DNA from: an uncultured Alphaproteobacteria bacterium
Lineage (GTDB): Bacteria; Pseudomonadota; Alphaproteobacteria; SP197
Assembly: GCA_943787175.1 (NCBI GenBank)
Contig: CALSLK010000009.1
Span: 1-64,000 of the forward strand
DNA length: 64,000 bases
Direction: 5' to 3'
Of this stretch, positions 44,386-62,085 are shown in pieces. Position numbers and translations under genes: made by a program. The notes beneath the pieces were generated by a model. That model did not search any database. It was not told the origin of the DNA and saw only the letters and a list, made by a program, of their open reading frames with translations. Position 1 is the first letter of the stretch. Every line of letters starts with the position of its first letter.

Positions 44386-45280
44386 TCAGATTTGCTCACC
44401 AATCCAATCCCGGAACGCCGTAACGCGGCTGTCTCCTGACCGGGTTTTCGGCCAGACGAGAAAATAGGAAAAGGGGTGCTCCGCCGTGAGATCGAAAGGC
44501 CGGATCAGGCGACCGGCATCGATGTCCGGCTGGGCAAGTTCCAGATAACCCATGGCAAAACCCACCCCGTCCATGGCGGCCTGCAGGGCAAGGTTCGGGT
44601 CCTGGAAAGACAGGCCCGGCAGTTCTTCACCTGCCGGCACCCTGGCGGCCTCCAGCCAGTAGCGCCATTCCTCACCCAGAGCATGGCCGCGAACATCGGC
44701 ATGGATCAGCGTCTGCTCGAGCATGACCGCGGGGTCGGGATTATCACCCAACGCGGCACAGGCTGCCCGGCTGCAAAGCGGTGTGAGATGGATGGGGAGC
44801 ATCAACTCGGATTCCAACCCCTGCCATGGTGCCAATCCGCATCGCAGGCCGATATCGGCTTCACCGGTGCCCAGGTTGCTGAAGGCCAGGGTGGGATGGA
44901 GGTGGATCGGGATGGCAGGGTAACGCCGCTGCCAGTCTCCCAGGCGGGGAATGAGCCACTTGGCGGCAAAGGTCGGCGTCGTCGTGACCTTCAGGGCGCC
45001 CTCGTGCTGGTCGGCCACAAGCCCCCCCAGGGTTGTGGCGATGCGGTCGAAGGCATCGGCCAGGACCGGCATCAGGGTCTGGCCGGCCTCGGTCAGCGTG
45101 ACGCCGCGATTGCTGCGATGAAACAGGTCAAAGCCGAGCGAGGCCTCCAGCTGGCGCACCTGATGGCTGATCGCGCTGTGGGTAACGTGGAGTTCGTCCC
45201 CAGCACGCGAAAAACTCAGGTGTCGCGCAGCCGCCTCAAAGGCGCGCAGGGCAGTTGAACTGGAGCGATCCGCGTTTCAC
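44386..45280 (-). CDS. LysR family regulator (GcvA-like), one frameshift at the N-terminus
   Basis: The C-terminal 257 residues read cleanly: TTTPTFAAKWLIPRLGDWQRRYP, LGTGEADIGLRCG and GVGFAMGYLELAQPD are the GcvA-type effector domain. The helix-turn-helix is in the same frame only back to ALRAFEAAARHLSFSRAG with SHQVRQLEASLGFDLFHR; a one-base shift near 45,253 joins it to the start at 45,280 (GTG, MKRGSLQFN). A total of about 297 residues results, normal for LysR. It is divergent from the Rieske oxygenase gene and likely controls it and the flavoprotein pair. Confidence 0.85.
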
Positions 45281-45391
45281 ATCAGACCCTGGTGTGAGTT
45301 TCATTCACACCCATCGTGCAAAATCATCGCTTGCTGTCAAATGCGACACAATCGCATCGTGGCATCCTGAACCTGCATTCCAGAGTGAGCG

Positions 45392-46753
45392 ATGGCACCA
45401 CGCACCAACACCTCCGCGCCGTATGACGGCTATCACCAGACCTGGACCGGCGCGAGCGATTCCGGTGCTGACTCAGGTCGGCCCCGGCACGCCATGCGGC
45501 GAATTACCTGCGCCGCTACTGGCAGCCGGTCGAACTTGCCAGGGAGCTGGGTGAACGCCCCAAGCTGATCCGCGTGCTGGGCGAAGACCTGGTGCTGTTC
45601 CGCGACAAGAGCGATCGGCTGGGCCTGGTCCACAAGAACTGCCCGCACCGCCGCGCGTCGATGGAATTCGGTATCTGCGAAGGCCGCGGCATCCGCTGCT
45701 GCTACCACGGCTGGCTGTTCGACGTGGACGGCACCGTTGTCGAAGCGCCCGGCCAGCCCGACGGCGTTGAGGAACGCATCCAGGCTTCCACCCGTCTGGG
45801 TGCCTATCCCGTGCGGGAGTATCAGGGCCTCGATCTTCGCCTATCTCGGCCCGCCTGACGTCGGTGCCCGAGTTCCCCATCTACGACACCCTGGAAATGC
45901 TCGGGCACGAGATGGTGCCCTACAAGGCGCCCTTCCACTGCAACTGGATTCAGGTTCAGGACGCCATCCTCGACCCGCTGCACACCGCCTTCCTGCACTC
46001 GCGCATGAGCCGCCAGCAGTTCTCCGAAGGGCTTCGGCGAAATCGGCGAGATGAAGTTCTATGAACGCCCGTCCGGCTATATCGGCACGGCGACACGCCG
46101 CGTCGGCGACAATGTCTGGGTCCGCGTGAACGAGCTGGTCCTGCCCAACTACACCCAGGCCGGCGCTGCCTTTGCCGCCGACGGCACGGCGAACAACGTT
46201 ACTTTCGGGCGCACCTCCTTTGCCCGCTGGGTCGTGCCGCTCGACGACACCGAAACCATGTGTTTTGCCTGGGCCGTGTTTGGTGACCGTGGCGATCCCG
46301 CAGGAATACAACACGCCCGAAGGGCCCTGAGCTGATCGAACAGGGCGAGGTCTTTGACCGGCCCTATGAGGAGCGCCAGCGCTTTCCCGCCGATGTCGAA
46401 GCCTGCGAGGGCATGGGCGTGTTCAGCGAACACGAGAAGGAAAACCTGGTGCCCAGCGACAAGGGCATCCAGATGTACCGCCGCCGCCTGCGCGAGCTGA
46501 TCGGCGCCCTGCAGGACGGCACGGAGCCCCCGCATGCCACCTCGATCTGGCCCAATCCGCTGCCGACCTATGGCGGCGACACCGTCCTGACGGTGCCAGA
46601 GCCGGCGGCGGGGATGACCGCAAGCTCCTGCAGAAGGTCGGCATGGCGGTGATGGACATCCAGTTCGCGGCGGAACACCTGAAAGGTGACGAACGCGACC
46701 AGCAGGTCATCGCCGCCCTCAAGACCCTGGAAGCCGAAGGTGTTGCAGCATGA
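45392..46753 (+). CDS. Rieske non-heme iron oxygenase, alpha subunit; multiple frameshifts
   Basis: The reconstructed protein has about 450 residues. The N-terminal Rieske domain has KNCPHRRAS and CCYHGWLFD, which give the Cys-x-His and Cys-x2-His ligands. The catalytic domain has the iron-binding DPLHTAFLHS. At least seven single-base shifts (near 45,513, 45,833, 45,853, 46,036, 46,292, 46,333 and 46,612) are needed; most are +1 insertions and each repair restores family sequence, for example IFAYLGPPD and GFGEIGEMKFYE. It resembles phthalate-dioxygenase-type or O-/N-demethylating oxygenases. It overlaps the next gene's start by 4 bp (ATGA). No reductase subunit is adjacent. Confidence 0.8.
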
Positions 46754-47770
46754 GTGTGCGCGTCCACATCAAGAACAACCACGCCCATCCCGACACCTTT
46801 CCGCCCACGCCCGGAGAGCGAGCCGGTCTTCACGACCACGCAGGAGCGTTATGACGCCGCGCTGAAGGGGTTTCTCCGACATCGCGCCCCAGCTCGATAC
46901 CGTCATCGACTGGGACACCGACACCTTCGCCGAGTCCATGCAGAACCGCCGAGGCCCTGATGTGCTGGGACCTGCCGACGGAGAACCTGCGCGAGGTCGC
47001 GCCCCACCTGAAATGGATTCACATCATCGGGGCGGGTGTCGAGCATCTCTGCCCCATGGACTGGGTGCCCGAAGGCCTCGTCATCACCAACAACAAGGGC
47101 GCCCAGGCCGACAAGGCCGGCGACTTTCGGCCTGATGGCCGTCATGATGCTCCACAACCACATCCCGGCCATCGCCAGCAATCAGGCCAAGTCGGAATGG
47201 CTCTCGCTCTATTCCACGCCCATCGAGGGGCGCACGGTGCTGATCGTGGGTGTCGGCAGCCTGGGCGGCGGCGCCGCCAAACAGCTCAAGAAACTGGGCA
47301 TCCGGGTTCTGGGCATCAGCCGCCACGGCAATCCCCACCCCCATGTCGACGAGATGGGAACGGTGGCGCAGCTGGATGACTTCCTGCCGCGCGCCGATCA
47401 GGTCTTTGTCGCCACGCCCATGACGCCCGAAACCGTCAACCTGATGAGCCGCGAGCGCCTGGCGCGCATGAAACCCGGTGCCGGAATCATCAACATCGGG
47501 CGCGCCGGCACCATGGACTATGACGCGCTGGTCGAGTTCCTGGGCACCGGCCAGATCGGCGGCGCGATCCTCGACGTCTTCGACCCCGAGCCCCTGCCGG
47601 CGGATTCACCGCTCTGGACGACACCCAACCTGATGGTGATGCCGCATATCTCGGCCGATGACGGCGACACCTATATCGAGACCACGCTCAACATCTTCCT
47701 TTCCAACATGCGCCGCTTCATCGCCGGCGACCCACTCCACAACATCGTCCGTCCCGAGCTGGGCTATTAG
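46750..47770 (+). CDS. D-isomer-specific 2-hydroxyacid dehydrogenase, frameshifted N-terminal half
   Basis: The last 240 residues read cleanly: NAD-binding LIVGVGSLGGGAAKQL, the Arg of NIGRAGTMD, Glu of DVFDPEPLP and His of PHISADDG are the catalytic and cofactor residues of the family. The N-terminal domain (SVRVHIKNNHAHPDTF, TTTQERYDAAL, LKWIHIIGAGVEHL) is cut by shifts near 46,813, 46,872, 46,944 and 47,127, all +1. The enzyme interconverts a 2-oxo and a D-2-hydroxy acid with NAD(P)H. It lies immediately after the Rieske oxygenase in the same operon. Confidence 0.82.
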
Positions 47771-47807
47771 ATTCCGGCTCGCGCTCCGACCTTCCCGCAC
47801 ACCCGTC

Positions 47808-47832
47808 ATGGCACGGCTTGACCGGCGCTCAT
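47808..47832. repeat. Degenerate palindromic repeat, CTTGA orientation (copy 4)
   Basis: A weak hairpin around cttga (catggcacgg ... ccggcgctc). Its flank cccgtcatgg matches the reverse complement of the downstream copy, so the two form an inverted pair about 100 bp apart in the 240-bp gap between the dehydrogenase and the glutamine-synthetase-like gene. Confidence 0.5.
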
Positions 47833-47934
47833 CCCTGCCGGAGCACCGGCACCACCCACCGACGGGTTGTCACGCGCACGATGGTGCCGCCATCATGTCA
47901 CCGGCAGAGCTGGAGTGCTTGGCCTCAGGCATGG

Positions 47935-47957
47935 ATGGCCCCATCAAGTGGGGCCAT
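47935..47957. repeat. Palindromic repeat with TCAAG loop (copy 5)
   Basis: A perfect 9-bp stem (atggcccca / tggggccat) around tcaag, followed by gacggg. The surrounding text (agctggagtg, ggcatggatgg) recurs around copy 7 at 56.2 kb, so the repeat unit is longer than the hairpin. Confidence 0.8.
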
Positions 47958-48010
47958 GACGGGTTGGGGAGAAACGCTATCGCACATCAACACCAACGGG
48001 GGCATCCGTC

Positions 48011-49438
48011 ATGACACTTCCTGATCCACAATCGCTCGAGGAAGCGCTGGCTTCAGAGGAACGCATCAAGGAGACCGGCGATTGGCTGGTTTCCAAAGGC
48101 ATCAAATCGATCCTGTGCTGCTGGATCGACCTTCTGGGCGTGCCCAAGACCAAGCCGGTCCCCATCTCTGACTGGCACCGCCTGTGCAAGGGCAAGGGGC
48201 CGCAGTTTGCCGTGCATTCGGTATCGTTTGTGCCCGAGCTTGGCCCGGCTGATCCCGATCAGATCATGGTACCTGATCTCGATTCCCTGCTGATCTGCCC
48301 CTGGGACCGCAGCCTGGCCTGGGTCTTTGCCGACCTGTGGTGGAGCGACAAGCCCTATAACGTGTGTCCGCGCAGCGCGATGAAACGCATCGTGCGCGAC
48401 TGCGAAGCCAAGGGTTACCAGCTCTATGCCGGTGTCGAGCCGGAATTCATGGTGATGCGCTGGAAAGACGGCCAGCCGGTCAAGGCCTACGATAACGACC
48501 CCCAGCCCGGCGAAGGCCTGCGCCCACGCCGCCAGGCGTTTGGTTACGACGTGGAACACACCATGGATTCCATGGGCTTCCTGGGCGAATTGATCGAGAT
48601 CCTCGACAAGGAACTCGAATGGGACCTGCATGATGTCGTGGCCGAAGGGGCCTACAGCCAGTTTGAGCTCGACTTCGGTTACACCAACATCCTGCAGATG
48701 GCCGACCGCCTGGTGTTCCTGCGCATTCTCCTGAAGGAGATCGCCAAGAAACACGGCATGTTCGCGACCTTCATGCCCAAACCCACCATCGGTGACTGGC
48801 GTTCGGGCGCGCATATGAACATCTCCATGCGCCATGTCGATGAGCCCGACGTCAACATCTTCGAGACGGCCAGACGGCGGCTGGGGCGATCCGCGTCTTC
48901 AACGCGGTCGCCGGGCTGCTGCGCCATGGCGGCGCCCTGACGGCGGTCGCCTGCCCCACGGTCAACTCCTACAACGGCCTGGTGCCCCGTGTCGGCGGCT
49001 TCGAGGGTGGCACGGTGACCTGGGCGCCCACGCACATGACCTATGGTTACAACAACCGCTCGGCCATGCTGCGCCTGCCCCAGAGCCGTTTCTGCATCGA
49101 GAACCGCGCCGCCGACATGTGCATGAACCCCTATCTGGGCCTGGGCATCTCGGCTGCGGCCATCACCGACGGCGTGGTCAACGGCTATGATCCCTGGACG
49201 CCCGCTCAACCAGGACCTCTATTCGCTGTCCCAGAAGGATATCGAGGAGTCGGGCACCCAGCGCCTGCCGCGCAACCTGCTGGAGGCCATCGAGACCCTG
49301 CGCAGCGACGACTTCGTCCGGCAGGCCATGGGCGAGCAGATGGCTGAATCCTTCATGGCCTACAAGGTCGATGAATGGGAGCGTTACCATCAGGCCGTTA
49401 CCGACTGGGAAGTGCAGGAATACCTGCGGCTCTATTGA
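48011..49438 (+). CDS. Glutamine synthetase family ligase (GlnT/GmaS-like), frameshifted
   Basis: A class-III-type glutamine synthetase homologue of about 470 residues. Conserved parts include CCWIDLLGVPKTKPVP, the metal/glutamate site GVEPEFMVMR, LHDVVAEGAYSQFELDFG, FMPKPTIGDWRSGAHMN and, after repair, ADGGWGDP, SYNGLVPR and RLPQSRFCIENR. Breaks near 48,872, 48,894 and 49,203 are single-base shifts. GlnT and gamma-glutamylmethylamide synthetase (GmaS) belong to this subgroup; with TMADH-like enzymes nearby, methylamine assimilation by glutamate ligation is plausible but unproven. Its stop overlaps the MetX-like start. Confidence 0.8.
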
Positions 49439-50466
49439 TGGCTGCCGGGCACGAGACCTTTGATCTCGGCGACGTCACCCTGCAATCGGGTGACGTCCTG
49501 CGTGATGCCAAGCTGGCCTACAAGACCTATGGCACGCTGAACGATGCCCGCGATAACGTCGTGGTGCTGCCGACCTTCTATACCGGCACCCACGAACGCA
49601 ACGAGTGTTACTTCGGTCCGGGCCGGGCGATTGATCCCGCACGCCATTTCATCGTCGGCGTGAATCTGTTCGGCAACGCGGTCTCGTCCTCGCCCAGCAA
49701 CACGGCCGCCCCCCAGGACGGTCCGCGCTTTCCCAGAACCACGTTCCACGACAACGTTGCGTGCCAGCACCGGCTCCTCACCGAACATCTGGGCATCGAG
49801 CGCATCGCGCTGGTGACCGGCTGGTCCATGGCGGCCTGCCAGTCGTTCCAGTGGGCCGCACAGTTCCCCGACATGGTCGATGCCATCCTGCCGTTCTGCG
49901 GCTCGGCAAGAACGGCGCCCCACAATGTCGTCTTCCTGGAAGGCGTGAAGGCGGCGCTCACCGCCGATGGCGACTGGAACGGTGGTGACTACCTTGCGCA
50001 CCCCTTACGGGGCTTGAAGGCCTTCGGTCGGGTCTATGCCGGCTGGGCGTTCTCCCAGACCTGGTACCGCGAAGGGACCTACCGCGAACTGGGTTACGAG
50101 ACCTATGAGGACCTGCTCCTCGACTGGGAGGCCGATCATGTAACCGGCTGGGACCCCAACAACCTGCTCCACAAGATCTGGACCTGGCAGCAGGGCGACA
50201 TCTCCAACAACGATCTCTATGGCGGTGACTTCAAGGCCGCCCTTGGCGCGATCAAGGCAAAGGCGATTGTCATGCCCGCCTCAACCGACCTCTACTTCCC
50301 GCCCGAAGACAACGCCATCGAAGTCGCCCAGATGCCCAACGCGGAACTGCGCATCTTCGACACCACCTGGGGCCACTGCTGCGCCAGTGGCAACAGCGTG
50401 CCTGCCTTCCATGCCTTCTTCGACGAAGCAGCCGCAGAACTGATGAACTTTACACGCACCCCATAA
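49438..50466 (+). CDS. MetX-like alpha/beta hydrolase (homoserine O-acetyltransferase family)
   Basis: A 342-residue protein of the MetX fold: LAYKTYGTLND, VNLFGNAVSSSPSN, nucleophile elbow GWSMAACQS, and the catalytic Asp/His in PASTDLYFPPED and WGHCCASG. The elbow reads GWSMAA instead of GGSMGG of true homoserine acetyltransferases, so an alternative acyl acceptor or a hydrolase is likely. It starts at the ATG overlapping the preceding TGA and is the last gene of the Rieske-dehydrogenase-ligase group. Confidence 0.85.
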   Translation: MAAGHETFDLGDVTLQSGDVLRDAKLAYKTYGTLNDARDNVVVLPTFYTGTHERNECYFGPGRAIDPARHFIVGVNLFGNAVSSSPSNTAAPQDGPRFPRTTFHDNVACQHRLLTEHLGIERIALVTGWSMAACQSFQWAAQFPDMVDAILPFCGSARTAPHNVVFLEGVKAALTADGDWNGGDYLAHPLRGLKAFGRVYAGWAFSQTWYREGTYRELGYETYEDLLLDWEADHVTGWDPNNLLHKIWTWQQGDISNNDLYGGDFKAALGAIKAKAIVMPASTDLYFPPEDNAIEVAQMPNAELRIFDTTWGHCCASGNSVPAFHAFFDEAAAELMNFTRTP

Positions 50467-50490
50467 GTTCTGGGTCAAGTTTGGCAACTT

Positions 50491-50896
50491 CTAATCAAAG
50501 ATCGCCATATAGCCTTGATTAGCTGACTTGTTTTCAGGCCGCACGCTCGCGTGAGTTGTGACCAAGTAGAAGCAGGACCCTGTAGAAGAATCGTAGTTGG
50601 TATTGCCTCCGGTCGTAACCTCTCCGATCGTAAACGTAATAACTTCCTCCGGCCCAGGAGCCCCGTGACTGAGAGCAAACAATAACCTTCGTAGGTTCGG
50701 CCAAACTGACCAAAAGAGATGTGCGGTCAGCTACACTCTTCCAATGCAAGACAGTGGACGCGCCCATACTTAACATCCACGCTTCGATGTCCTTTGACAT
50801 CTGATCGTCTTCATCAGCCTGCGAAGTTTCGACGGTTGCTCCAACCATGAACAAGGCCACCAGAACTCCTGAAACACGTTGAGTTATGACAGACAT
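50491..50896 (-). CDS. Small secreted hypothetical protein, one frameshift, lower GC
   Basis: The reconstructed protein has about 134 residues: a signal peptide (SGVLVALFMVGATVETSQA), then EDDQMSKDIEAWMLSMGAST, VLHWKSVADRTSL, a VIVCSQSRGSW segment and, after a one-base shift near 50,665, EEVITFTIGEVTTGGNTN and a C-terminus SANQGYMAIFD. No family recognised. Codon use is clearly more AT-rich than in the neighbours, and the 70 bp upstream of it are AT-rich as well, so recent transfer is possible. Confidence 0.55.
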
Positions 50897-50964
50897 GCTA
50901 AATCTCCCCTATAGCTGACTTACAATCTATCCTTATTACGTGTTCTGATTCAACAAAAACAATT

Positions 50965-51686
50965 TTAAGTGGCACTCTCGCTTCCGTAGGCCTTCACCAG
51001 CCCCTCCTTGCCGAACATCTCCTCGATGGCCTGGGGGCCGGAGCGTTTGGAGAGTTCGATGAAACGGTCGTCTTCTCCCAGCGCGCCAGATCATGCGTTC
51101 GCTGTAGGCCGGCATCAGGTCATCCTGGCGGCGGCGCTGGTAGCCGCCCCAGCTTTCGTCCAGGGCGGCGACGACGTCATCGGGCCGGGTCCAGGCGGCC
51201 TTGTAGAGGATCAGGCCACCGCGCCCGATCAGCCAGGTCATGTTGGGCAGGGTGCCGAAGGCCCGGTGGCAGGTGCCCGTCATGTCATCGAGCAGGATGG
51301 GGCGTTTGATCTTCTGTTCCTCACGGAACTGGCGCGCGTGTTCGCGCTTCATGCTCCATCGAGGCATGGGGCGGCAGGTTCTCGGCTGGATGAGCCTCAC
51401 GTACATACACAAAAACCGATCGCACGGACCGGTCGGCGTACACTTCAGCGATGTCTTCCATCGCCTCGGCCGCCATCGTGCAATACGCTCAGCTGTAGCT
51501 GCCGAACTCCATCAGAACAGCGCCTGACTTCCAGAGATCCTTGAGATGGAGCGTCTCGCCGCTCTCCAGGTCTTCCAGGGCCATATCGGGTGCGATCGTC
51601 CCCACGTTCGGCGCTTCGTAGAATCGCTCGAACTTGTCGGCTTTCTCACCCGTGGGCGGGAAATGCGCATAGTTGTAGTCGTCCAT
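50965..51686 (-). CDS. Deiodinase-like thioredoxin-fold protein, candidate selenoprotein (in-frame TGA)
   Basis: The reading starts MDDYNYAHFPPTGEKADKF and, at codon 66, meets TGA (51,489-51,491) in MEFGSYS-TGA-AYC. It then continues in the same frame through EDIAEVYADRSVRSVFVYVREAHPAENLPP. Two one-base insertions near 51,353 and 51,080 are needed further on to restore MKREHARQFREEQKIKRP, LLDDMTGTCHRAFGTLPN and the C-terminus KEGLVKAYGSESAT. Alignment by eye to iodothyronine deiodinases (FGSCTUPSF, VYIEEAHASDGW, VVDTM) puts the TGA at the selenocysteine position; here it would form a U-x-x-C redox motif. The alternative is a stop-codon mutation or a miscalled TGC. About 239 residues; cytoplasmic, no signal peptide. 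Confidence 0.65.
51448..51464 (-). other. Candidate bacterial SECIS hairpin downstream of the TGA
   Basis: In the mRNA, gcgaug and caucgc form a perfect 6-bp stem closing the loop gaaga. The loop begins 30 nt after the UGA and its first base is G. General bSECIS descriptions require a short upper stem, a small apical loop with a G in the first two positions and roughly 16-37 nt from the UGA; this hairpin fits all three. Such hairpins occur by chance, so it supports but does not prove selenocysteine insertion. Confidence 0.45.
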
Positions 51687-51826
51687 CGGTTTCCTCCGTC
51701 TCGGACGAAACCAGTAAAGCAGCCCAGCAATACGGGGGCCACGCCCTCACAGGCGTTTGATCTATCGCAGTGCGCTCCTTTCCGTGCCGTTCATGATGCC
51801 AGACAAACCCGCATTCTGGAGATCTG

Positions 51827-53224
51827 ATGACCGTGAATCCCGCGACATCCCGTCGTCTGTCGTCGCTTGAGCAGATTCATCCCCGTTCGTTGAAGTATCT
51901 CAGCGGCTATCTGCGCAGCCTGGTTCGCGGGCGTCTGTGGGCACAGGTGCTGGCCGGCATGGTGCTGGGGCTCGCCATGGGCATTGCCATCGGCCCGACA
52001 GGCGGCTGGCTGGAACCGACGACCGCAGCGACCCTTGGCAACTGGCTTGCCATGCCGGGAAGACTGTTTCTGGCGCTGATCCAGATGATCGTGGTGCCGC
52101 TCGTGTTTGCCTCGATCATCAGAGGGCTCGCGGCAACGGAAAACCCGTCCCAGTTGCGCACGATTGGCCTGCGTGTCGTGCTCTACTTCATTGCAACGAC
52201 AGCGCTTGCCATCGTTATCGGCATCGTTCTGGCGTTGGTCATCCAGCCCGGTAGTTTCGTGGATCAGGAGATGGTGCGCCAGGCCGTTGGCACCGCAACG
52301 CTTGGTCCGGTCGAAGCGTCGGGACCGCCCGCTCTGTCGGAGATCCCCGAAAAGCTGATGTCCCTTCTGCCCGCCAATCCGCTGGGCTCGATGGTCGAGA
52401 GCGACATGCTGCGTGTGGTGATCTTTGCCGTGGTCGTGGGTGTCGCCCTCGTGATGATGCCGCCTGGACAATCAAAACCCCTGCTGGACCTTCTGGGCTC
52501 CCTGCAGGAAGTCTGCATGACCGTGGTGCGTTGGGCCATGATGCTGGCGCCCATCGCAGTGTTCGGTCTTCTGGCGCAGCTGACGTCCAAGATCGGCCTT
52601 GCTGCCCTGCTCGGCATGGCCGTCTATGTCGCGACGGTACTGGCAGGTCTTCTGATCCTCTTCGTGTTCTACATGATCCTGCTGTTCGTCTTTGCGGGCA
52701 GACGCCCCTTGCCGTTCCTGGCAGGAACCCGCGAACTGCTGCTGCTGGCGTTCTCGACGTCGAGTTCGGCAGCCGTGATGCCGCTTTCCATCAAGACGGC
52801 AGAGGAAACGCTGAAGGTGCGTAGTTCCATCAGTCAGTTCGTCATTCCCCTGGGCGCCACCATCAACATGAACGGCACCGCGCTCTATCAGGGCGTTGCC
52901 GCGATCTTCCTGGCTCAGGTCTTCGGGGTCGATATCAGCCTGGCCGGCATGGCACTGATCGTCATCACGGCTGTGGGCGCTTCGATCGGTACACCGGCCG
53001 CACCAGGTGTGGGCATCGTCGTTCTGGCCATGGTGCTGGGTACGGTCGGCATTCCCCCGGCAGGCATTGCACTGATCATGGGTGTGGACCGCATCCTCGA
53101 CATGTGCCGCACGGCCATCAATGTCTGCGGCGATCTGGTGGCAACCGTGCTGATGGATCACTGGAGCGCGGCGACCGACGCACCGGCAGCCGAGACTGCA
53201 AGCGAAGTCGCCGGCAGGACATGA
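51827..53224 (+). CDS. Dicarboxylate/amino acid:cation symporter (DAACS family)
   Basis: A 465-residue inner-membrane symporter. The serine-rich hairpin FSTSSSAAVMPLS and the NMNGTALYQGVAAIFLAQ motif (Na+ and substrate binding) identify the GltP/DctA family, as do the C-terminal GASIGTPAAPGVGIV and VDRILDMCRTAINV. It transports C4-dicarboxylates or glutamate/aspartate with Na+ or H+. The gene stands alone between minus-strand groups. Confidence 0.95.
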   Translation: MTVNPATSRRLSSLEQIHPRSLKYLSGYLRSLVRGRLWAQVLAGMVLGLAMGIAIGPTGGWLEPTTAATLGNWLAMPGRLFLALIQMIVVPLVFASIIRGLAATENPSQLRTIGLRVVLYFIATTALAIVIGIVLALVIQPGSFVDQEMVRQAVGTATLGPVEASGPPALSEIPEKLMSLLPANPLGSMVESDMLRVVIFAVVVGVALVMMPPGQSKPLLDLLGSLQEVCMTVVRWAMMLAPIAVFGLLAQLTSKIGLAALLGMAVYVATVLAGLLILFVFYMILLFVFAGRRPLPFLAGTRELLLLAFSTSSSAAVMPLSIKTAEETLKVRSSISQFVIPLGATINMNGTALYQGVAAIFLAQVFGVDISLAGMALIVITAVGASIGTPAAPGVGIVVLAMVLGTVGIPPAGIALIMGVDRILDMCRTAINVCGDLVATVLMDHWSAATDAPAAETASEVAGRT

Positions 53225-53233
53225 CGCTGGCCG

Positions 53234-54385
53234 TCAGAGCGTCTCCTGCACGCCCCAGATCGCCGTGACCTGGCTGGAGAAGTGGCCGCCGTTGCCGTGG
53301 CTGATGGCTGTCTTGGCATCCGCGACCTGACGGTCACCGCAGTCACCGCGCAACTGCTGGATCGCTTCGATCACGGTGAAGATGCCGTACATGCCCGGAT
53401 GCACGCAGGAGAGGCCGCCGCCATTGGTGTTGACCGGCAGGCGTCCGCCCGGCGCGATGCCGCCGTTCTCGACAAACGGGCCGCCCTCGCCCTTGGCGCA
53501 GAAGCCCAGGTCCTCGAGGAACATGATCGGGTTGATCGAAAAGGCGTCATAGAGTTCCAGCACGTCGATCTCGGCGGGCTTGAGTCCGGCCATCTCGAAG
53601 GCGCGGGGTCCGGTCTCGCTGGCACAGGTCTGGGTCAGGTCGGGAAGCTGGGAAATCTGGCGATGCCAGTGGGCCATGGCCGCACCCAGCAGATAGACCG
53701 GCTCACGATTGCAGTCACGCGCGCGGTCGGACCGGGTGAGCACGACGGCACCCGCGCCATCGGTCACCAGACAGCAATCGCGCACGGTAAAGGGATCGCA
53801 GATCATCCTGGCGTCGATGACTTCGTCACGCGTGAGCGGGCCGCGCATGAAGGCATCCGGGTTCAGCGCCGCCCATTGGCGCGCGGCAACGGCGACATCG
53901 GCAAGCTGTTCGCGCGTCGTGCCGTATTCGTACATGTGGCGCGAGGTCGAGAGCGCATAGGAACTGATGGGATAACGCGGGCCATAGGGCATCTCGTAGA
54001 TCAGCGGTTCGCTGGTCGAGGGCGACAGCAGCTTGCCCGCCACGCTGCGCTGGGTGCTGCCGTAACAGATGAGCGCGGTATCGATCAGCCCGGCATCGAG
54101 CGCCAGCGCGGCCCAGATCAGGTGTGCGACCGGCGAGGAGCCGCCGATCTGCGTGCCTTCAGAAAGCTTGGGCCGGATGCCCAGATATTCCCCGACATTG
54201 AGCGGGGCGAAGATGTTCTGCAGGTTCGCCGCGAACAGGCCGTCGACATCGCTGAAGGAAAGCCCGGCTTCATCCAGCGCCTGTTTGGCGGCCATGGCGG
54301 TGAGGTCGAGATGCGACAGGCCCGGCGCCTCGCCGATGCCCGCCAGGCCAACACCCACGGCGGCAACCTTCCCCCGGAAACTCAT
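53234..54385 (-). CDS. Thiolase-like protein of the SCP-x/Ltp2 lipid-transfer group
   Basis: A 383-residue thiolase-fold protein (VGLAGIGEAPG, ELYDAFSINPIMFLEDLG, SCVHPGMYG). At the place of the nucleophilic Cys of true thiolases the sequence reads TQIGGSSPVAHLIWAA, i.e. Gly/Ser without Cys. That is a trait of Ltp2-type aldolases that act with a DUF35 partner. The DUF35 gene lies directly upstream with a 4-bp overlap, in agreement. In steroid side-chain degradation this pair performs retro-aldol C-C cleavage; the substrate here is unknown. Confidence 0.83.
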   Translation of the reverse strand: MSFRGKVAAVGVGLAGIGEAPGLSHLDLTAMAAKQALDEAGLSFSDVDGLFAANLQNIFAPLNVGEYLGIRPKLSEGTQIGGSSPVAHLIWAALALDAGLIDTALICYGSTQRSVAGKLLSPSTSEPLIYEMPYGPRYPISSYALSTSRHMYEYGTTREQLADVAVAARQWAALNPDAFMRGPLTRDEVIDARMICDPFTVRDCCLVTDGAGAVVLTRSDRARDCNREPVYLLGAAMAHWHRQISQLPDLTQTCASETGPRAFEMAGLKPAEIDVLELYDAFSINPIMFLEDLGFCAKGEGGPFVENGGIAPGGRLPVNTNGGGLSCVHPGMYGIFTVIEAIQQLRGDCGDRQVADAKTAISHGNGGHFSSQVTAIWGVQETL

Positions 54386-54765
54386 GAGGGATCAAAGACG
54401 ACCAGCGGATTGCCGTCCTCCTGTTTGATGCGTGCCGCGACGGCCATGCCGATTTTCACGTCTTCGGGTGCCGGCCCCTCCACACGCCCGGGAAAGCGCA
54501 CGCCCTCCTCCATGTCCACAAGGCATAGGTTGTAGGGCCCGCCCTTGTCCGGCCTCTGCCGGATCACCGTGGTGGCATAGACCGTGCCCTTGCCCGACAC
54601 CTCGCGCCAGGTCAGGGATGATCCGTGACAATGGGGGCAAAAGAGCCGCGGGTAAAAGACGTGGCGCTGACAATCGCCGCATTGCTGAATGCAGATCCGC
54701 CCTTCGGCAAGGTAAGCGGCATAACGTTCATCGGGACCTTCAGGGAGCGGGTGGGGCACAGACAT
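54382..54765 (-). CDS. DUF35 OB-fold/zinc-ribbon partner protein
   Basis: About 127 residues. The N-terminal zinc ribbon has two Cys pairs (QQCGDCQR and LFCPHCHGS), followed by the OB-fold (WREVSGKGTVYATTVI, VDMEEGVRFPGRVEG). Such proteins bind acyl-CoA and activate thiolase-like enzymes. It overlaps the thiolase-like gene by 4 bp and the metallophosphoesterase gene by about 25 bp, so all three are in one transcript. Start chosen at 54765 (MSVPHPLP). Confidence 0.9.
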   Translation of the reverse strand: MSVPHPLPEGPDERYAAYLAEGRICIQQCGDCQRHVFYPRLFCPHCHGSSLTWREVSGKGTVYATTVIRQRPDKGGPYNLCLVDMEEGVRFPGRVEGPAPEDVKIGMAVAARIKQEDGNPLVVFDPS

Positions 54766-56152
54766 CTCCATCACGGATTGGCATGGCGCAGGTCATCAGC
54801 AGGGATGGCGCAACGCTGCCATCGGCATCGAACGATGTGAGATCACCGCGCCAGGTCATCGCATCATCCAGATTCACGGAAAGGTAGCCGAAGGCCGCCG
54901 TCGTCGACGGCACGGCCGAGACCCAACCGGTCGCCGCCTCACCATCAACCTCCATGGCAACCGGAAGCGTGATCACGTTGCTGTCGAGATGTGTACCACT
55001 GTTGCCGACGATGATCTGAGACGGCCGGTCGCTGTCAAAGGAAAGCGCCTGGGCCTCATGGACATGGCCCGACAGCACCAGCGAAACGTTGCCGGGAAGC
55101 TTACCATCCAGCGCCGCCTTCAGGGTCAGTTGCCAGGCATCACTGCCATCGAAGGTGCCGCCACCGCTTAACACATTCGCCGACCAGAACGGACGATGGG
55201 TCAGCAGCCAGACGGGATCGTCGCCTTCTGCGGCAAGATCCACAGTCTGGTTGAGCAGAGGCGAGAACTCTCTGACCTGCCAGGCAAACGCTGCCTCGTC
55301 CTGCCAGGAACTGGCATCACAGCCATCGGAGTTGTCGAGCACGACCATGTCGAGGTTGCCGACAGAAACCCGATACGGTTCGGTCGTCACGACGGGTGCC
55401 GTGCAGTGGCGTGTTCCGTGCAGGGGGTCCAGCAGTTCGGAATGAGGGTCGAGGAAATAGAACCAGCCATCGCCACCCCGGCTGCAGAGTTCGTGGTTTC
55501 CGCGCACGACAACCCAGGGGGCAGCATCCATGAGCGGCGCGGCAGGCGTCATCAGATCGTCGCGCCAGGTCTCCCAGGTCGAGAGGTCGTGCAGGGAGAC
55601 GTAGTCGGCGTCGGCGCCCGGCACACAGCCGTCATAAACACGGGGATCGCCCTCATCACGGCGTGATGGCGTGCCGCGATAGTCGTAGTCGCCCATGTGG
55701 ATCACGAGGTCGGGGCTGTCGCCTGCAGCGGATGCGGCCAGTTCGGGGAACGGCCAGCCATCCTCGCAACTCTGATCCTTGGGCGAGCAGCCGGTATCGC
55801 CCAGGATGGCAACATCAAGGCCTCCGCCGTCATGCCCATGCATGGTGGCGATGGGCTTGTCTGCGATGCTGACCGTTGCATTGAGCGGCACGACGACTTC
55901 ACAGACCGCGACCGGAAACCGTTCGGCATCGGGATTGTAGCGAGGCGCCGAGACCGTTGCTTTGCCATCAACCACAAACACCGGACAAGCCGTCTCCGCG
56001 CCATCAACCACGGCCCGCGCGAGCAATACCGTCCTGTCGTTGACCGGGTCGTAGGCAACGACGCTGTAGGACGCCAGGGCATCCGCGTCAGCCCGGCCCG
56101 ACAGCACCATGATCGAAAGCGCAAGGAAGAGGCACCCAAGGACATGTTTCAT
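54740..56152 (-). CDS. Exported metallophosphoesterase
   Basis: A 470-residue protein with a signal peptide (MKHVLGCLFLALSIMVLSG). Four metal-binding blocks of the calcineurin-like family are visible: AILGDTGC, HMGDYDYRG, VRGNHELC and LSGHVHEAQ, plus LTHRPFWS. Function could be phosphodiesterase or acid phosphatase in the periplasm. Its C-terminus overlaps the DUF35 start. It is an unexpected member of an otherwise acyl-CoA-type operon and may have been inserted, with palindromic repeats on its upstream side. Confidence 0.88.
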   Translation of the reverse strand: MKHVLGCLFLALSIMVLSGRADADALASYSVVAYDPVNDRTVLLARAVVDGAETACPVFVVDGKATVSAPRYNPDAERFPVAVCEVVVPLNATVSIADKPIATMHGHDGGGLDVAILGDTGCSPKDQSCEDGWPFPELAASAAGDSPDLVIHMGDYDYRGTPSRRDEGDPRVYDGCVPGADADYVSLHDLSTWETWRDDLMTPAAPLMDAAPWVVVRGNHELCSRGGDGWFYFLDPHSELLDPLHGTRHCTAPVVTTEPYRVSVGNLDMVVLDNSDGCDASSWQDEAAFAWQVREFSPLLNQTVDLAAEGDDPVWLLTHRPFWSANVLSGGGTFDGSDAWQLTLKAALDGKLPGNVSLVLSGHVHEAQALSFDSDRPSQIIVGNSGTHLDSNVITLPVAMEVDGEAATGWVSAVPSTTAAFGYLSVNLDDAMTWRGDLTSFDADGSVAPSLLMTCAMPIRDGDVCAPPAP

Positions 56153-56176
56153 GACGCGCCCCTCCCATTTTCCGTC

Positions 56177-56199
56177 ATCGCCCCACTTGATGGGGCGAT
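56177..56199. repeat. Palindromic repeat, CTTGA orientation (copy 6)
   Basis: A perfect 9-bp stem (atcgcccca / tggggcgat) around cttga, preceded by gtc, in the gap upstream of the metallophosphoesterase. Confidence 0.75.
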
Positions 56200-56258
56200 C
56201 AATGCCGTAACTGCGTTGTCAGCTCTGCCGGAGCTGGAATGTGACAGCGTCGGCATGG

Positions 56259-56281
56259 ATGGCCCGGTCAGGCCGGGCCAT
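56259..56281. repeat. Palindromic repeat with TCAGG loop (copy 7)
   Basis: A perfect 9-bp stem (atggcccgg / ccgggccat) around tcagg, followed by gacggg. With copy 6 it forms an inverted pair in the 169-bp gap; the flanking gagctggaatg and cggcatggatgg match those of copy 5. Confidence 0.8.
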
Positions 56282-56321
56282 GACGGGTGGGTTGGGTGGG
56301 CTGAGTGTTGTTCGTTCATCG

Positions 56322-57183
56322 TCACACCACCTCCGCATAGCCGTTGTTGAGCACAACGACATCACGTTCGACCACCCGTGCGCGGAAAGAGACGGTGCTG
56401 CCGTCGCGCCACATCTCCGTGCGGATAGTTTCGCCGGGGAAAGACCGGTGCGGAGAACCGCACGTCGAAGCGTTTGAGACGGGTGGGGTCGTAACCGCAC
56501 AGGGTCTTCAGAAGGGCATGACCGGAGACACCGAAGGTGCAGAGACCGTGCAGGATCGGGCGCTCGAAATCCGGCCTCCCTGGCGACATCCGGGTCGGCG
56601 TGTAGCGGATTGCCGTCCCCGTTGAGACGGTAGATCAGGGCCTGCTGCGGCAGGGTCGGCAGGTCGCAGGTATGGTCGGGCTCGCGTTCGGGAAGCTTGT
56701 GCACCGGTCGGATGGGACCAGTGGGCCCGCCGAAACCGCCGTCCCCGCGGCAGAAGGTCGTGCGCGTGATCGTGGCGACGGCCTTCCCCGTACTCGGCGT
56801 TCGCAGACCTCTCGGGTCATGTAGATCAGCGCGCCCTTGCCTTCCCCCTTGTCGATGATCTCATCGACCCGGCTGCGGGTCACGTACCGTCCCTGCGGCA
56901 ACAGCGTCTGGTGCAGCGTGATGCCCTCCTCGCCATGGACGACCCGTTTCCAGTCAACCCCGGTTGCGGGATCACGCAACCAGAAGTGCGAGGGGGCGAC
57001 CACCACGGCCATGGTCGGCAGGGCCAGCATGCCGGGCTCATAGGTATATCTCAGTTGGTCGGGATCAACGGGGTCGAATCCCAGTCCGACACCCAGCGCA
57101 TAGAGCGCTGATTTCTCCCAGGTCCAGTCAACGACCTGTTCCCCGAAATCCCACGCCTTGAGTTTCTCGTAATCGATTGCCAT
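56322..57183 (-). CDS. MaoC-like hydratase (second of pair), frameshifted
   Basis: About 286 residues after repair. The N-terminal half reads cleanly (ALYALGVGLGFDPVDPDQLRYTYEP, AVVVAPSHFWLRDP) and is a degenerate hot-dog domain. The C-terminal hot-dog domain has YRLNGDGNPLHADPDVAREAGF and, in another frame, RPILHGLCTFGVSGHALL, i.e. the Asp-x4-His hydratase motif of 2-enoyl-CoA hydratases. Breaks near 56,440, 56,570, and 56,740-56,800 must be repaired. It is 3 bp downstream of a paralogue and has the same two-hot-dog layout as peroxisomal MFE-2 hydratases. Confidence 0.75.
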
Positions 57184-57186
57184 AGC

Positions 57187-58053
57187 TCAACCTCGCAGAT
57201 CGGCACGGCCGTTGTCGATGACAACAATGTCGCGCGCCTGAGCCTTCACGTGGAACCAGACCGTCGATCCCTCGTGCCAGAGTTCCGTGGAGAGGGTTTC
57301 GCCGGGATAGACCGGTGCCGTGAACCGGCCAGAAATCCGCGCAATGGCCGCGGGGTCATGGCCACAGCAGGACGCAACCACCGCGTGACAGGCCAGGCCA
57401 TAGGTGGCGAGGCCGTGCAGGATGGGGCCGTCGAATCCGGCGGAGCGGGCGTATTCAGGCTCGACATGAAGCTTGTAGTGGTCGCCCGACAGCCGATAGA
57501 GCAGCGCCGCCTGTGCCGGAACCTCGCGCGTCACACGGTGGTCGCACGCACGGTCCGGAGGCGCCGGCCGATCGGACGATGGCGGCGGTTCCCCGCCAAA
57601 ACCGCCAGCGCCGATCAGCACATCGGTCTGGCGGCGCGTGGCGACCAGAGCGCCGGTTGCCGCATCGTGCAGCTCTTCCTCGATGATCAGGAGTCCGTGG
57701 CTGCCCTCGCCCCGGTCATACAGTCCTGCAATGCGTGACTGGCTGGCGAGCCTGCCCTCGGGTTTCAGTGGAGCATGGAGAATCAGGGTTTCGTCACCGT
57801 GGACATTGGGCGCGTCGCCCAGGCCAAGGTTCGGGTCCTCCAGCCAGTCAAGCTTGTCCCCCAGGACCGTGGCAAAGGTCGGCAACACCTTAGGCCCCCA
57901 TTCTTCGTAGACGAACGGTAGTTCCTCCCGATCCATGGGATCGGCCCCCAGCCCCAGACCCAGCGCGTAAAGCAGGGCATCCGAGGCAGTATAGCTGCGC
58001 TCTGTTCCAGGAATGGCAAATGCGGCCACCTTGTCGGGATCGGGACGGATCAT
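57187..58053 (-). CDS. MaoC-like 2-enoyl-CoA hydratase (first of pair)
   Basis: A 288-residue double hot-dog protein. The catalytic motif of hydratase 2 enzymes is in the C-terminal half: YRLSGDHYKLHVEPEYARSAGF then GPILHGLATYGL, with Asp and His in place. N-terminal half resembles DALLYALGLGLGADPMDREELPFVYEE. It would hydrate trans-2-enoyl-CoA to the (R)-3-hydroxyacyl-CoA. The start overlaps the stop of the upstream SDR gene by 4 bp, so SDR and hydratases are coupled. Confidence 0.9.
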   Translation of the reverse strand: MIRPDPDKVAAFAIPGTERSYTASDALLYALGLGLGADPMDREELPFVYEEWGPKVLPTFATVLGDKLDWLEDPNLGLGDAPNVHGDETLILHAPLKPEGRLASQSRIAGLYDRGEGSHGLLIIEEELHDAATGALVATRRQTDVLIGAGGFGGEPPPSSDRPAPPDRACDHRVTREVPAQAALLYRLSGDHYKLHVEPEYARSAGFDGPILHGLATYGLACHAVVASCCGHDPAAIARISGRFTAPVYPGETLSTELWHEGSTVWFHVKAQARDIVVIDNGRADLRG

Positions 58054-58971
58054 ACGGGATCCCAGCTGAAGACATCGCCCGAAACCTCCAGCGGGGTGAG
58101 GTCGTTGGCAAAGGCTGGACCCATCTGATCGGCGAGCGCCCTGGGGGTCCAGCCGCCGTCGCGGTGCAGCTGGCGGATCGGGCGCGGCTGGCTCATCAGG
58201 AACACTTCGTTGCCGCGCATGCAGAAAATCTGGCCTGTCACCTCGGCTGCGGAATCGGACGCCAGGTACACCACCAGGGGCGCGACCTTGGCGGGGGTCA
58301 GCGATTTCAGCTTGTCGACCCGGGCCTTCTGCTCTTCATCGCCCGTGGGGATGGAGCCGATCATGCGCGACCAGGCGAACGGTGCCAGACAGTTCGAGCG
58401 CACGCCGAACCGGGCCATGTCGATGGCGATGCCGCGCGACAGCCCGACAATGCCCATCTTGGCGGCGGCATAGTTGGCCTGTCCGACATTGCCGATCAGG
58501 CCCGAGGTCGAGGTGAAATGGACAAACGCGCCCGAACCCTGCTCGCGGAAGAGCGTCGCGGCGGCACGGCTGGTGTTGAAGCTGCCGCGCAGATGAACAT
58601 CCAGCACCGCCTCGAAGTCGGCGTGGCTCATCTTGTGAAAGATGCCGTCGCGCAGGATGCCGGCGTTGTTCACCACCGCATCCAGACGGCCATAGGCGTC
58701 GATCGCCGTGGCAGACCATGCGCTGCGCGCCCGCGAGGGTCTGCGACGTTGTCGCCGTTGACGACCGCTTCGCCGCCGGCGTCACGGATTGCACCGCAAC
58801 GACCTCTGCTGCGGGCCCCTGGTCCGCTCCCGCGCCATCCAGCGCGGCGCCGAGGTCGTTCACCACCACGGCCGCGCCTTCCTCTGCCGCCAGGATCGCG
58901 ATCTCACGCCCGATGCCGCGCCCCGCGCCGGTCACCAGCACCACCTTGCCTGCCATCATGCCGTCTGCCAT
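58050..58971 (-). CDS. Short-chain dehydrogenase (3-hydroxyacyl-CoA type), frameshifted
   Basis: About 306 residues after repair. N-terminus: LVTGAGRGIGREIAILAAEEG (NAD-binding Gly motif, cited by its parts) and VVVNDLG. After shifts near 58,798, 58,742 and 58,715 the reading continues with VVNNAGILRDGIFHK, catalytic Ser in TSTSGLIGN and YAAAKMG (Tyr-x3-Lys). The C-terminal 90 residues extend beyond a plain SDR and resemble the tail of MFE-2 dehydrogenase domains. It would oxidise 3-hydroxyacyl-CoA made by the adjacent hydratases. It is first in the minus-strand operon. Confidence 0.85.
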
Positions 58972-59060
58972 GGGTCCCTCCCTCGATACCGACTGCTACT
59001 GTTTCGCTCACGACCGAAGCGGTCAATGATGCTGGCCACAATTCCTTCCAGGAGATTGCC

Positions 59061-59767
59061 ATGAGCAAGGATCTCTATGCCCGGCTGGCCGGGCTGAGCA
59101 CGGCCACGGTTTCCACCCAGCTCCTGAAACACGGCTACCGCGCGGTCTATATCGGCGGCGTCCGGCCGCTCTCACCGGACCAGCCGACCATCGCCGGACC
59201 GGCCTACACCCTGCGTTGCCTGCCGTTCCGGGAGGATCTTTGTGATCCCGCAAAGCTGGGCCACACCGAAAGCAGCCAGCGCAAGACGATCGAGGAAGCA
59301 CCACCCGGCAGCGTCATCGTGATCGAAACCCGCGGCGACACCTCGGCCGGCGTGATGGGCGACATCCTGGCGACCCGCATGAGGGTGCGCGGTGTTGCAG
59401 GGCTCGTGACGGACGGCGCGGTGCGCGACGCCGCTGGCGTGACGGCAAGCGGTTTCCCGGTCGTGTGCGCAAGCGCCACCGCGCCGGCCAACATCGCTTC
59501 GTTCAGCGACGGCGGTCGCCAGCTCGCCATCGCCTGCGGCGGCGTCTGCGTTGTTCCCGGCGACGCCGTCATCGCCGATCAGGACGGCGCCATCGTCATC
59601 CCCGCTGATCTGCTCGAAGCGGTTGTTGATGACGGCGAGAAACAGGAAGCCTTTGAAGCCTGGGTGCTGGGGCGAAGTCGAAGCCGGACAAGGCATCTTC
59701 GGCCTCTACCCGCCCGATGAGGGAAACCAGGGCACGGTACGAAGCGTCGAAAGCCCAACAGGATTAG
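59061..59767 (+). CDS. RraA family protein, C-terminal frameshifts
   Basis: About 234 residues. The RraA/4-hydroxy-4-methyl-2-oxoglutarate aldolase features are all present: LSTATVSTQLLKHG, GDTSAGVMGDILATRM, the conserved GLVTDGAVRDAAG (Arg and Asp for metal and substrate) and GDAVIADQDGAIVIP. Two extra Gs, near 59,673 and 59,721, hide the normal end; removing them gives LGEVEAGQGIFGLYPPDEETR and a stop at 59,765 overlapping the convergent aldehyde dehydrogenase stop. A ribosome binding site (ccaggag) sits before the ATG. Members are aldolases or decarboxylases of oxo-acids. Confidence 0.87.
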
Positions 59768-61272
59768 CCCTGATAGGCCTCTTCATCCTTGTAGGGGAAC
59801 CACCAGAAGTCGGCAGGCTCGTTTTCGTGGTCGATCATGGTGAGTTTGGTGTGGCGGAACTGGTCGATCCCCTCTGATCCAAGCTGGCGGCCTGTTCCTG
59901 ACAGCTTGCGCCCGCCAAACGGCCCGGCATCGTTGTCGACCAGCGCCGAGGCGTTGATCCAGGTTGTGCCGACTTCAAGCTCGTTCATCGAACGCATGAT
60001 CTCGGTGACATCGTTGGTGAAGACACAACCGCCCAGGCCGTAATCCGAATTGTTGGCAAGGTCCATGGCTTCATCAAAGCTGCCGACGCGGCAGATCGGC
60101 ATGACCGGGCCGAAGCTCTCGTTGTTCATGATGTCCATGTCGGGGGTACAGTCGGTCAGGATCGTGGGGCTGTGGAAAAAGCCCCTGTTGAAGCCGTCGG
60201 GACGACCACCGCCCAGCGCAACCTTGGCACCCTGGTCGATCGCATGGGCCAGAATACCTTCAAATCGATCGCGTTCGCGCTGTGCCGCCATCGGCCCCAG
60301 GTCGACCTTGTCGAGGCCGTTGCCGATCCGAAGCCGGGAAGCAAGCTCTGTAACCTCCTCGACGAACTGATCGTGGACGTCCTCATGGATGTAGAGCCGT
60401 TCGGCCGAGGTGCAGACCTGACCGCAATTGGCAAAGGAGGCGAAGACGGCCGCCTGGCTCGCGACCGACAGTTTTGCCGACGGCATGACCATGAATGCAT
60501 CGTTGCCGCTGGCTTCGATCAGGGCCCGTTTGAAGGTATCCGCACAGGTCCGCGCCACAGCCTGCCCGCCGGGAACCGAGCCGGTGAAGGCAATACCATC
60601 AACGCCCTTATGGCCAACCAGCGCCTCGCCGGTCTCCAGTGCCCCGGGAATGCATTGCATCAGCCCTTTGGGCAGATGGTCAAAACACTCCATCAGCACC
60701 AGCGACGAGAAACTGCACAGTTCCGAGGGCTTCATGATAACCGCGTTGCCGGCTGCCAGCGCAGCGCTGGCCTCCCAGCCGAACAACACAAAGGGGAAGT
60801 TGTAAGGCAGGATGACCCCGACCACGCCCAGGGGATCTTTGGTGACGACATGCATCTGACCATCGACGTTGGGTCCGACCACACGGCCGGCATCGTGGCG
60901 TGCGATCTCGGCGTAGTAGTCAAAGGCACTGGCCGCCCACCACACCTCGTTGGCCGATTCCTTGAAGGGTTTACCCATCTCGCGCGTTGCCGCTTCGGCC
61001 AGCCTGGGCATCGCCTCGCGAAGCCGACGCGCGACCTCATGCAGTTCCTCGGCCCGGGTTCCCTGGTTTGTGCGATTCCATTTCTTCTGCGCCCGTTTGG
61101 CGGCTTCAACGGCTTCATCCACCTCAGCCGCACTTGCAAAAACAAGCGCGCCATTGACTTCCTCGGTCGCGGGATCAATCGCATCACAACCCTCGGTGCC
61201 GGCACCCTTGCGCAGCACACCATCAATGTGGATGTGCCCTGATAAACTTTTGAATGTTTCCATCATGGTCAT
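59764..61272 (-). CDS. NAD(P)-dependent aldehyde dehydrogenase
   Basis: A protein of about 502 residues with family motifs ILPYNFPFVLFGW, KPSELCSFSS, FTGSVPGG, catalytic Cys in FANCGQVCTSAERL and the PFGGRKLSGTGRQLG end. The general-base Glu is in IEASGND. The C-terminus FWWFPYKDE resembles betaine- or aminoaldehyde dehydrogenases, a function that would fit the rest of the window, but substrate specificity is not certain. Start 61272 (MTMMETF) was taken; the earlier in-frame codon adds 23 unconserved residues. Confidence 0.92.
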   Translation of the reverse strand: MTMMETFKSLSGHIHIDGVLRKGAGTEGCDAIDPATEEVNGALVFASAAEVDEAVEAAKRAQKKWNRTNQGTRAEELHEVARRLREAMPRLAEAATREMGKPFKESANEVWWAASAFDYYAEIARHDAGRVVGPNVDGQMHVVTKDPLGVVGVILPYNFPFVLFGWEASAALAAGNAVIMKPSELCSFSSLVLMECFDHLPKGLMQCIPGALETGEALVGHKGVDGIAFTGSVPGGQAVARTCADTFKRALIEASGNDAFMVMPSAKLSVASQAAVFASFANCGQVCTSAERLYIHEDVHDQFVEEVTELASRLRIGNGLDKVDLGPMAAQRERDRFEGILAHAIDQGAKVALGGGRPDGFNRGFFHSPTILTDCTPDMDIMNNESFGPVMPICRVGSFDEAMDLANNSDYGLGGCVFTNDVTEIMRSMNELEVGTTWINASALVDNDAGPFGGRKLSGTGRQLGSEGIDQFRHTKLTMIDHENEPADFWWFPYKDEEAYQG

Positions 61273-61428
61273 GGCAGATTCTCCCGGAACGTTCCTGTCA
61301 TGTGTTACCCCACTCCACAGTCGAGCAGGGTTTTCTTTCAAGAGCCATGCCCCAAAGGGGCCATTAACCTATCGGGATTCGATGCTAGGTTTGCATGATC
61401 AACAGTTCTGAGGGGCAGGTGAACCGAC

Positions 61429-62085
61429 ATGGCAAACATCTTCATCATCGGCGCAACCGGCGGCGTCGGCAGCAAGTTGGGGCGGCTCCTGGTGCGGTCC
61501 GGGCACAGCGTCATCGGCCTCCATCGAAAACCCGATCAGGCTGCTGGTCTGGCCGATGACGGAGTATCGCCAGCCCAGGGTGACATCATCGAGATGACAC
61601 CGGAGCAACTGGCCCAGGCAGCGCAGGGCGCTGACGTGATGGTCTTTACCGCCGGTGCAGCCGGGAGTGGCCTCGACCGGACGACCGCGATCGACGGCGA
61701 CGGCCCGGCCAAGGCAATCGAGGCAGCAAGGCTTCTGGGGATCACGCGCCTGTATCTCGTCTCCGCCTTTCCCGAAGCCGGCCGCCAGCGGGAACGCAGT
61801 GATGGATTCGAACACTACATGGCCGAAAAGAAGCGCGCCGATGTGGCCGTGGCGACGTCGGAACTCGAGTGGGTCATCCTGCGCCCCGGCACCCTGACGG
61901 ACGCCGAAGGCCAAGACACCGTAACGATGGGTCCTGCAATCCTGTACGGCAGCATTGCCCGCGAGACCGTGGCGCGCGCCCTCTGCGCGCTGATCAATCA
62001 ACCATCGGTCTGCCGGGAGATCATTGAACTGACGGATGGTCCCACGCCCATCGACGAAGCCGTCGCCGCATTGAGGCAGGGTTGA
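61429..62085 (+). CDS. NAD(P)-binding atypical short-chain oxidoreductase (NmrA/YwnB-like)
   Basis: A 218-residue protein with the Rossmann motif IIGATGGVGSKLGRLLV, GLHRKPDQ, a central VFTAGAAGSG and RLYLVSAFPEAGRQ. In place of the Tyr-x3-Lys there is YMAEKKRAD with the later EWVILRPGTLTD, typical of SDR_a5-type reductases. Cofactor binding is clear; the reaction is unknown. Its TGA overlaps a TTG start for the next regulator gene. Confidence 0.88.
   Translation: MANIFIIGATGGVGSKLGRLLVRSGHSVIGLHRKPDQAAGLADDGVSPAQGDIIEMTPEQLAQAAQGADVMVFTAGAAGSGLDRTTAIDGDGPAKAIEAARLLGITRLYLVSAFPEAGRQRERSDGFEHYMAEKKRADVAVATSELEWVILRPGTLTDAEGQDTVTMGPAILYGSIARETVARALCALINQPSVCREIIELTDGPTPIDEAVAALRQG

Follow-up and report, generated by a model that had tools for sequence, protein, structure and literature searches.

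The gene, its reading frame and its neighbourhood

The DNA analysed here (the window) is a stretch of 64,000 nucleotides, positions 1 to 64,000 of contig CALSLK010000009.1, from an uncultured alphaproteobacterium. Between 50,965 and 51,686 it carries, on the minus strand, a gene whose frame starts with the ATG at 51,686, runs through 65 codons (51,492-51,686) and reaches a TGA at 51,489-51,491, codon 66, where selenocysteine (Sec) is predicted. Past the TGA the same frame runs on as AYCTMAAEAMEDIAEVYADRSVRSVFVYVREAHPAEN, which is clear protein sequence. An earlier note on this DNA had placed a TGA at codon 66 of a frame that goes on with family sequence, and both points are confirmed on the minus strand. 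Two further frame changes follow in the window copy, and the remainder of the protein is found in both other frames: a middle part in the second (approximately 51,080-51,352) and a C-terminal part in the third (approximately 50,965-51,078), the latter matching the C-terminus of the closest relative, G004, to about 50,984. Because of these two later changes, 50,965-51,686 is not a single open frame even if the TGA is read through. The length of the protein, about 239 residues, is taken from the intact copy in G004. Gene finders that halt at TGA would end such a gene at codon 66 or begin it past the TGA.

Downstream of the TGA, and on the same strand, the TGC of Cys69 (51,480-51,482) completes a U-A-Y-C motif and is a candidate resolving cysteine. 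A SECIS-type hairpin spans 51,447-51,465, with its loop, GAAGA, at 51,454-51,458. Codons 97-99 (51,390-51,398) encode a Glu-Ala-His (EAH) common to deiodinases, and a second candidate redox cysteine lies in the sequence GTCH (51,269-51,271).

A thiolase gene is located at 53,234-54,385 on the minus strand. In the window, as in G004, a dicarboxylate symporter gene (51,827-53,224, plus strand) stands between it and the TGA-containing gene. In three relatives (G009, G012 and G015) a gap of 57-58 bp separates the thiolase from the start of the gene, which follows it on the same strand, and in G005 thiolase-matching DNA begins about 110 bp from it. Genes near the G004 thiolase encode a ChsH2-like OB protein, two MaoC/MFE-2 hydratases and a short-chain dehydrogenase. 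When the short flanking sequences of eight other loci were inspected by eye, the thiolase cluster was not recognised outside family f1, and we regard this neighbourhood as a weak hint on function. In locus L031 (about 1-1152; SAR202 Chloroflexota) an ORF close to the TGA gene has, by eye, the look of a Rieske oxygenase and resembles the one that the window carries at about 45-47 kb.

Decoding of codon 66

The gene is present in six of 61 genomes, comprising the host's own and 60 relatives, and codon 66 is TGA in all six; a profile search of 16 genomes of the host's family returned the same six. Family members at E <= 1e-12 occur in 19 of 385 Alphaproteobacteria genomes (own included), and a scan of GTDB contigs yielded 35 loci from several phyla. 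After removal of duplicates (L007-L010, L090, L102, L103), truncated loci (L104, L105) and two matches from genome G389, 63 homologues were compared at the site. Every one of them has either TGA (34) or a cysteine codon, TGC or TGT (29), and the two alternate across phyla. With TGA also in all five relatives that have the gene, conservation of this codon is far above chance. Extra TAG, TAA and TGA stops were flagged in the Alphaproteobacteria matches; in the loci that were read, they appear to lie beyond the gene's own end. The intact genes of G004 and G009 themselves terminate in TGA, and in these two genomes TGA is therefore not just another sense codon.

G389, an alphaproteobacterial genome, has four family matches, of which two lie near each other on a single contig; those that were read, L085 and L095 among the loci, carry U-P-P-F. 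No relative was confirmed in the viral contigs searched. The plasmids searched gave one distant record, at 138728-139216 of the Mycolicibacterium vanbaalenii plasmid NZ_CP126902.1, whose protein is annotated as 'deiodinase-like protein' and shares 28% identity over 69% of the query.

The selenocysteine machinery for which the earlier note proposed to search is found in the host's own genome. Contig C31 holds a tRNA-Sec (68.4 bits, gathering score 47; anticodon TCA according to ARAGORN) and a full-length selA (573.9 bits), while selB and selD are recovered in pieces with scores below the curated cut-offs. In each of the five relatives that carry the gene, selB scores above the cut-off and tRNA-Sec reaches 65.7-82.4 bits. 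Low-scoring tRNA-Sec matches are no evidence, since they are seen in most genomes searched and in all 14 controls. A tRNA-Sec of more than 70 bits is also present in relatives that do not have the gene, such as G001-G003, and the gene is therefore not the sole reason for the selenocysteine trait in this group. The sequence ahead of the host's selD pieces (L075, about 2500-4563), on the same strand, resembles by eye an NADH dehydrogenase (MDVVLIGGGHAHVEVL), and the two perhaps form a fused SelD; the search flagged a TGA inside this selD.

The hairpin described earlier as a 6-bp stem beginning 30 nt after the TGA is present with the loop GAAGA, but its stem has seven pairs (six Watson-Crick and one G-U) and starts at 23 nt; the distance of 30 nt holds for the start of the 5-nt loop. 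Bacterial SECIS elements have been described as having a loop of 3-9 nt with a G in the first two positions, a stem of 4-16 bp, a spacing of 16-37 nt and a minimum free energy of at most -7.5 (PMC13188914). At -9.8 kcal/mol, and with a G first in its loop, the window hairpin lies within each of these limits, as had been claimed, although its loop starts with G-A and not with the G-G or G-U that is commoner in that model. The hairpins of the five relatives range from -11.5 to -13.9. Among the 63 homologues, a hairpin at -6 kcal/mol or below follows the site in 30 of the 34 TGA genes and in one of the 29 cysteine genes; at -7.5 or below the counts are 21 and none. The corresponding difference in energy (Mann-Whitney p 1.8e-11) is overstated by this p value, since related sequences are counted. 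Within the UAYC group taken by itself, shuffling synonymous codons often produces a hairpin of the same stability (p 0.10-0.23). Codons 67-90 are enriched in identical codons (13/18 vs 42/120 elsewhere, p 0.003); over the hairpin alone (4/5, p 0.06) the enrichment is not significant. Rfam gave no match at gathering thresholds in the window and none up to E 5 within 51,380-51,500.

The conserved TGA, the exchange of Sec and Cys, the Sec machinery and the hairpin together support the selenoprotein interpretation of the earlier note. What had been a guess by eye is now a selenoprotein with good support, found in a group of uncultured Alphaproteobacteria, and the in-frame TGA is very probably decoded as selenocysteine in a thioredoxin-like redox protein.

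Fold, predicted chemistry and alternative readings

Against Pfam AhpC-TSA (PF00578) the part in the window scores 29.4 bits and G004 39.5, both above the gathering cut-off of 26. Against T4_deiodinase (PF00837, cut-off 27) the window part scores 21.5, the full-length G004 protein 29.0 and G012 21.4. The best NCBIfam match is the deiodinase family protein NF038285, at 64.6 (G004) and 66.7 (G012), below its curated cut-off of 250 bits. A PF00837 search of the host's own genome gave no match at 0.001 and is uninformative, since the 14 control genomes gave none either. A profile built from ten UxYC proteins finds, among solved structures, the deiodinases DIO3 first (1.3e-12) and then DIO2 (1.7e-8). 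It places the TGA on the Sec of both, in agreement with the alignment drawn earlier by eye, and it aligns VREAH with the deiodinase EAH; a wider profile gives the same result. E97, A98 and H99 are invariant in the 27 rows of alignment A2. Cys69 is conserved in all ten UxYC proteins (alignment A3). In the UAYC proteins one cysteine follows Sec at a distance of three residues and a second lies in a GxCH motif, the latter being present in 6/6 alphaproteobacterial and 0/4 Chloroflexota/Thermomicrobiota rows of A3.

AlphaFold2 models the G004 protein with confidence (pLDDT 90.3, pTM 0.90), and the predicted N-terminus consists of about 11 loop residues followed by a helix of 13. When this model is used as a Foldseek query, ResA ranks first (1.1e-9) and DIO3 twelfth (5.5e-9), with DIO2 giving the top query TM-score, 0.59, among the 50 matches listed. 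The cysteine homologues from Acidobacteriota (L016, L018, L020, L025, L032, L033) have a longer C-terminal part; by eye it resembles a membrane helix with basic residues after it.

A midpoint-rooted tree of 55 sequences was built, leaving out five broken, masked or partial sequences (L001, L004, L014, L027 and L034) as well as the cysteine rows L078 and L097-L100. DIO2 and DIO3 group with 20 bacterial sequences at 99/97, and 15 of these 20 have U/C-P-P-F. The window's UAYC relatives join two further alphaproteobacterial UPYC proteins at 99/97, and this alphaproteobacterial group joins four UxYC proteins of Chloroflexota and Thermomicrobiota at 96/93. With a midpoint root and long deiodinase branches, the group of the window gene falls outside the clade that contains DIO2 and DIO3. 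At least five changes between Sec and Cys are required. The label 'deiodinase-like' used in the earlier note is a fair one, but the protein stands outside the DIO2/DIO3 clade and scores higher with AhpC-TSA than with T4_deiodinase.

The best explanation of the locus as a whole, to which we give a probability of about 0.83, is a selenoprotein of the thioredoxin/peroxiredoxin fold with Sec at UGA66, a redox role for a Sec-Cys pair, and frame shifts that are errors. Decoding of UGA66 as Sec is supported by comparison across genomes, through the conserved TGA, the Sec/Cys exchange, selection past the TGA, the Sec machinery, the hairpin and the fold. SelB and tRNA-Sec would read the UGA as selenocysteine, aided by the hairpin just downstream. 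Sec66 would serve as the attacking selenol, Cys69 of U-A-Y-C could resolve it as a selenenylsulfide, and a thioredoxin-like donor would then reduce the selenenylsulfide again, with Glu97 and His99 possibly assisting proton transfer. The likeliest substrate would be a peroxide or a disulfide.

Alternatively, the protein could genuinely be a deiodinase-type reductive dehalogenase whose substrate carries iodine or bromine. In favour of this, the best profile matches in the PDB are to DIO3 and DIO2, and both Sec and the EAH motif align with deiodinases. We nevertheless consider this unlikely. Besides the separate position in the tree, the residue two before Sec is Tyr64, leaving the protein without a proximal cysteine, and the loop that corresponds to the Dio insertion (loop-D) is 9 residues shorter than in DIO3 and 12 shorter than in DIO2. 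This insertion has been linked to thyronine recognition and to a proton relay, and DIO2 itself is without the proximal cysteine, having alanine there (PMC11592359). The UxxC pair, together with ResA as the best fold match, suggests chemistry on disulfides or peroxides. Judged from motif and fold, the missing proximal cysteine and the shorter Dio loop make a selenol redox enzyme likelier than a deiodinase.

The genomic context allows a further, improbable suggestion. Because the gene directly follows a thiolase in some genomes of family f1, where MFE-2-type hydratases and a ChsH2-like OB protein belong to the same cluster, the UAYC/UPYC branch might be a separate selenoenzyme lineage with the deiodinase fold and EAH that serves acyl-CoA metabolism, perhaps reducing peroxidised, halogenated or thiolase-linked intermediates through its Sec-Cys pair. 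If so, the deiodinase superfamily would gain a substrate class beyond thyroid hormones.

The broken frame of the window copy could also be that of a decaying pseudogene, in which the TGA would be a plain nonsense codon to which the two frame shifts added more damage; the G005 copy is frame-shifted as well. This account is very improbable. The TGA is found at the same codon in six genomes, in four of which (G004, G009, G012 and G015) the gene is otherwise one continuous frame of 235-239 codons, and TGA alternates with cysteine codons across phyla. Among these four intact copies dN/dS is 0.105-0.287 before the TGA and 0.092-0.235 after it; between the window and G004 the values are 0.124 and 0.158. 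The low values past the TGA argue that this part is selected as protein. The DNA of G004 is about 94% identical to the window (three alignments, 17,254 columns in all), and over about 17 kb the two differ by 46 gaps, of which 42 are extra bases in the window. Many of these lie within other genes, and the stretches affected include a Rieske protein, a glutamine synthetase and a protein identified by eye as a dehydrogenase. The host's selB region shows 34 gaps over 4.9 kb against G004, again mainly extra bases. Since extra bases are scattered through the neighbouring genes too, the two frame shifts are most likely read or assembly errors. If the gene was lost in the host's own strain only, its relatives could still have a functional copy. 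More generally, comparison of 45083-62905 with L070, a 94% identical relative, suggests that the window assembly is rich in small insertion errors, and broken genes there need careful reading.

That translation begins past the TGA, with the upstream frame outside the protein, is hardly credible: an ORF finder does give such an ORF, of 169 codons, in G004, but codons 1-65 are as constrained as those that follow the TGA and supply the opening strands of the modelled fold, and the catalytic position would itself be lost.

Comparison with known systems

Deiodinase-like selenoproteins of bacteria were reported from the Sargasso Sea in 2005, in Sec and Cys forms and with a suggested redox role (PMC1088965), and a further count was made in the GOS data (PMC2398784). 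This bears out the earlier remark that they are known from marine metagenomes. Reviews of 2022 and 2026 list the family as PF00837/UxxC (PMC9312934, PMC13188914). Since UxxC deiodinase-like selenoproteins have been in print since 2005, the present gene is an addition to an already known selenoprotein family. In our literature searches, Rhodospirillaceae, selenoprotein and deiodinase were not found joined in one paper, nor was 'deiodinase family protein' found together with bacteria.

The window gene shares with this prokaryotic family (PF00837; PMC1088965, PMC9312934, PMC13188914) the exchange of Sec and Cys at the site, the UxxC motif, a SECIS-type hairpin, the thioredoxin fold and the suggested redox role. 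It differs from the family as described there in having UAYC and not U-P. ResA/TlpA oxidoreductases and AhpC/TSA peroxiredoxins resemble it in fold, ResA giving the best Foldseek matches and the AhpC-TSA Pfam cut-off being passed, and in the CxxC spacing of two active residues. Unlike them, it has Sec for the first cysteine, the VREAH motif and a C-terminal part past the common fold, and its score with the NCBIfam ResA model, 25.4, is far below the cut-off of 170.

With animal DIO2 and DIO3 it has in common the position of Sec, the EAH motif and the best profile matches to solved structures. It differs from them in its separate clade, in the missing proximal cysteine and loop residues, and in carrying U-A-Y-C where they have U-P-P-F. 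These sequence comparisons suggest that the bacterial 'deiodinase-like' proteins form at least two branches, one mostly of U/C-P-P-F proteins together with the animal deiodinases, the other with a candidate resolving cysteine near Sec. Distinguishing a UxxC branch from one that holds the animal deiodinases refines the picture of the known family, and both the origin of the animal deiodinases and the chemistry of their bacterial relatives could be examined branch by branch.
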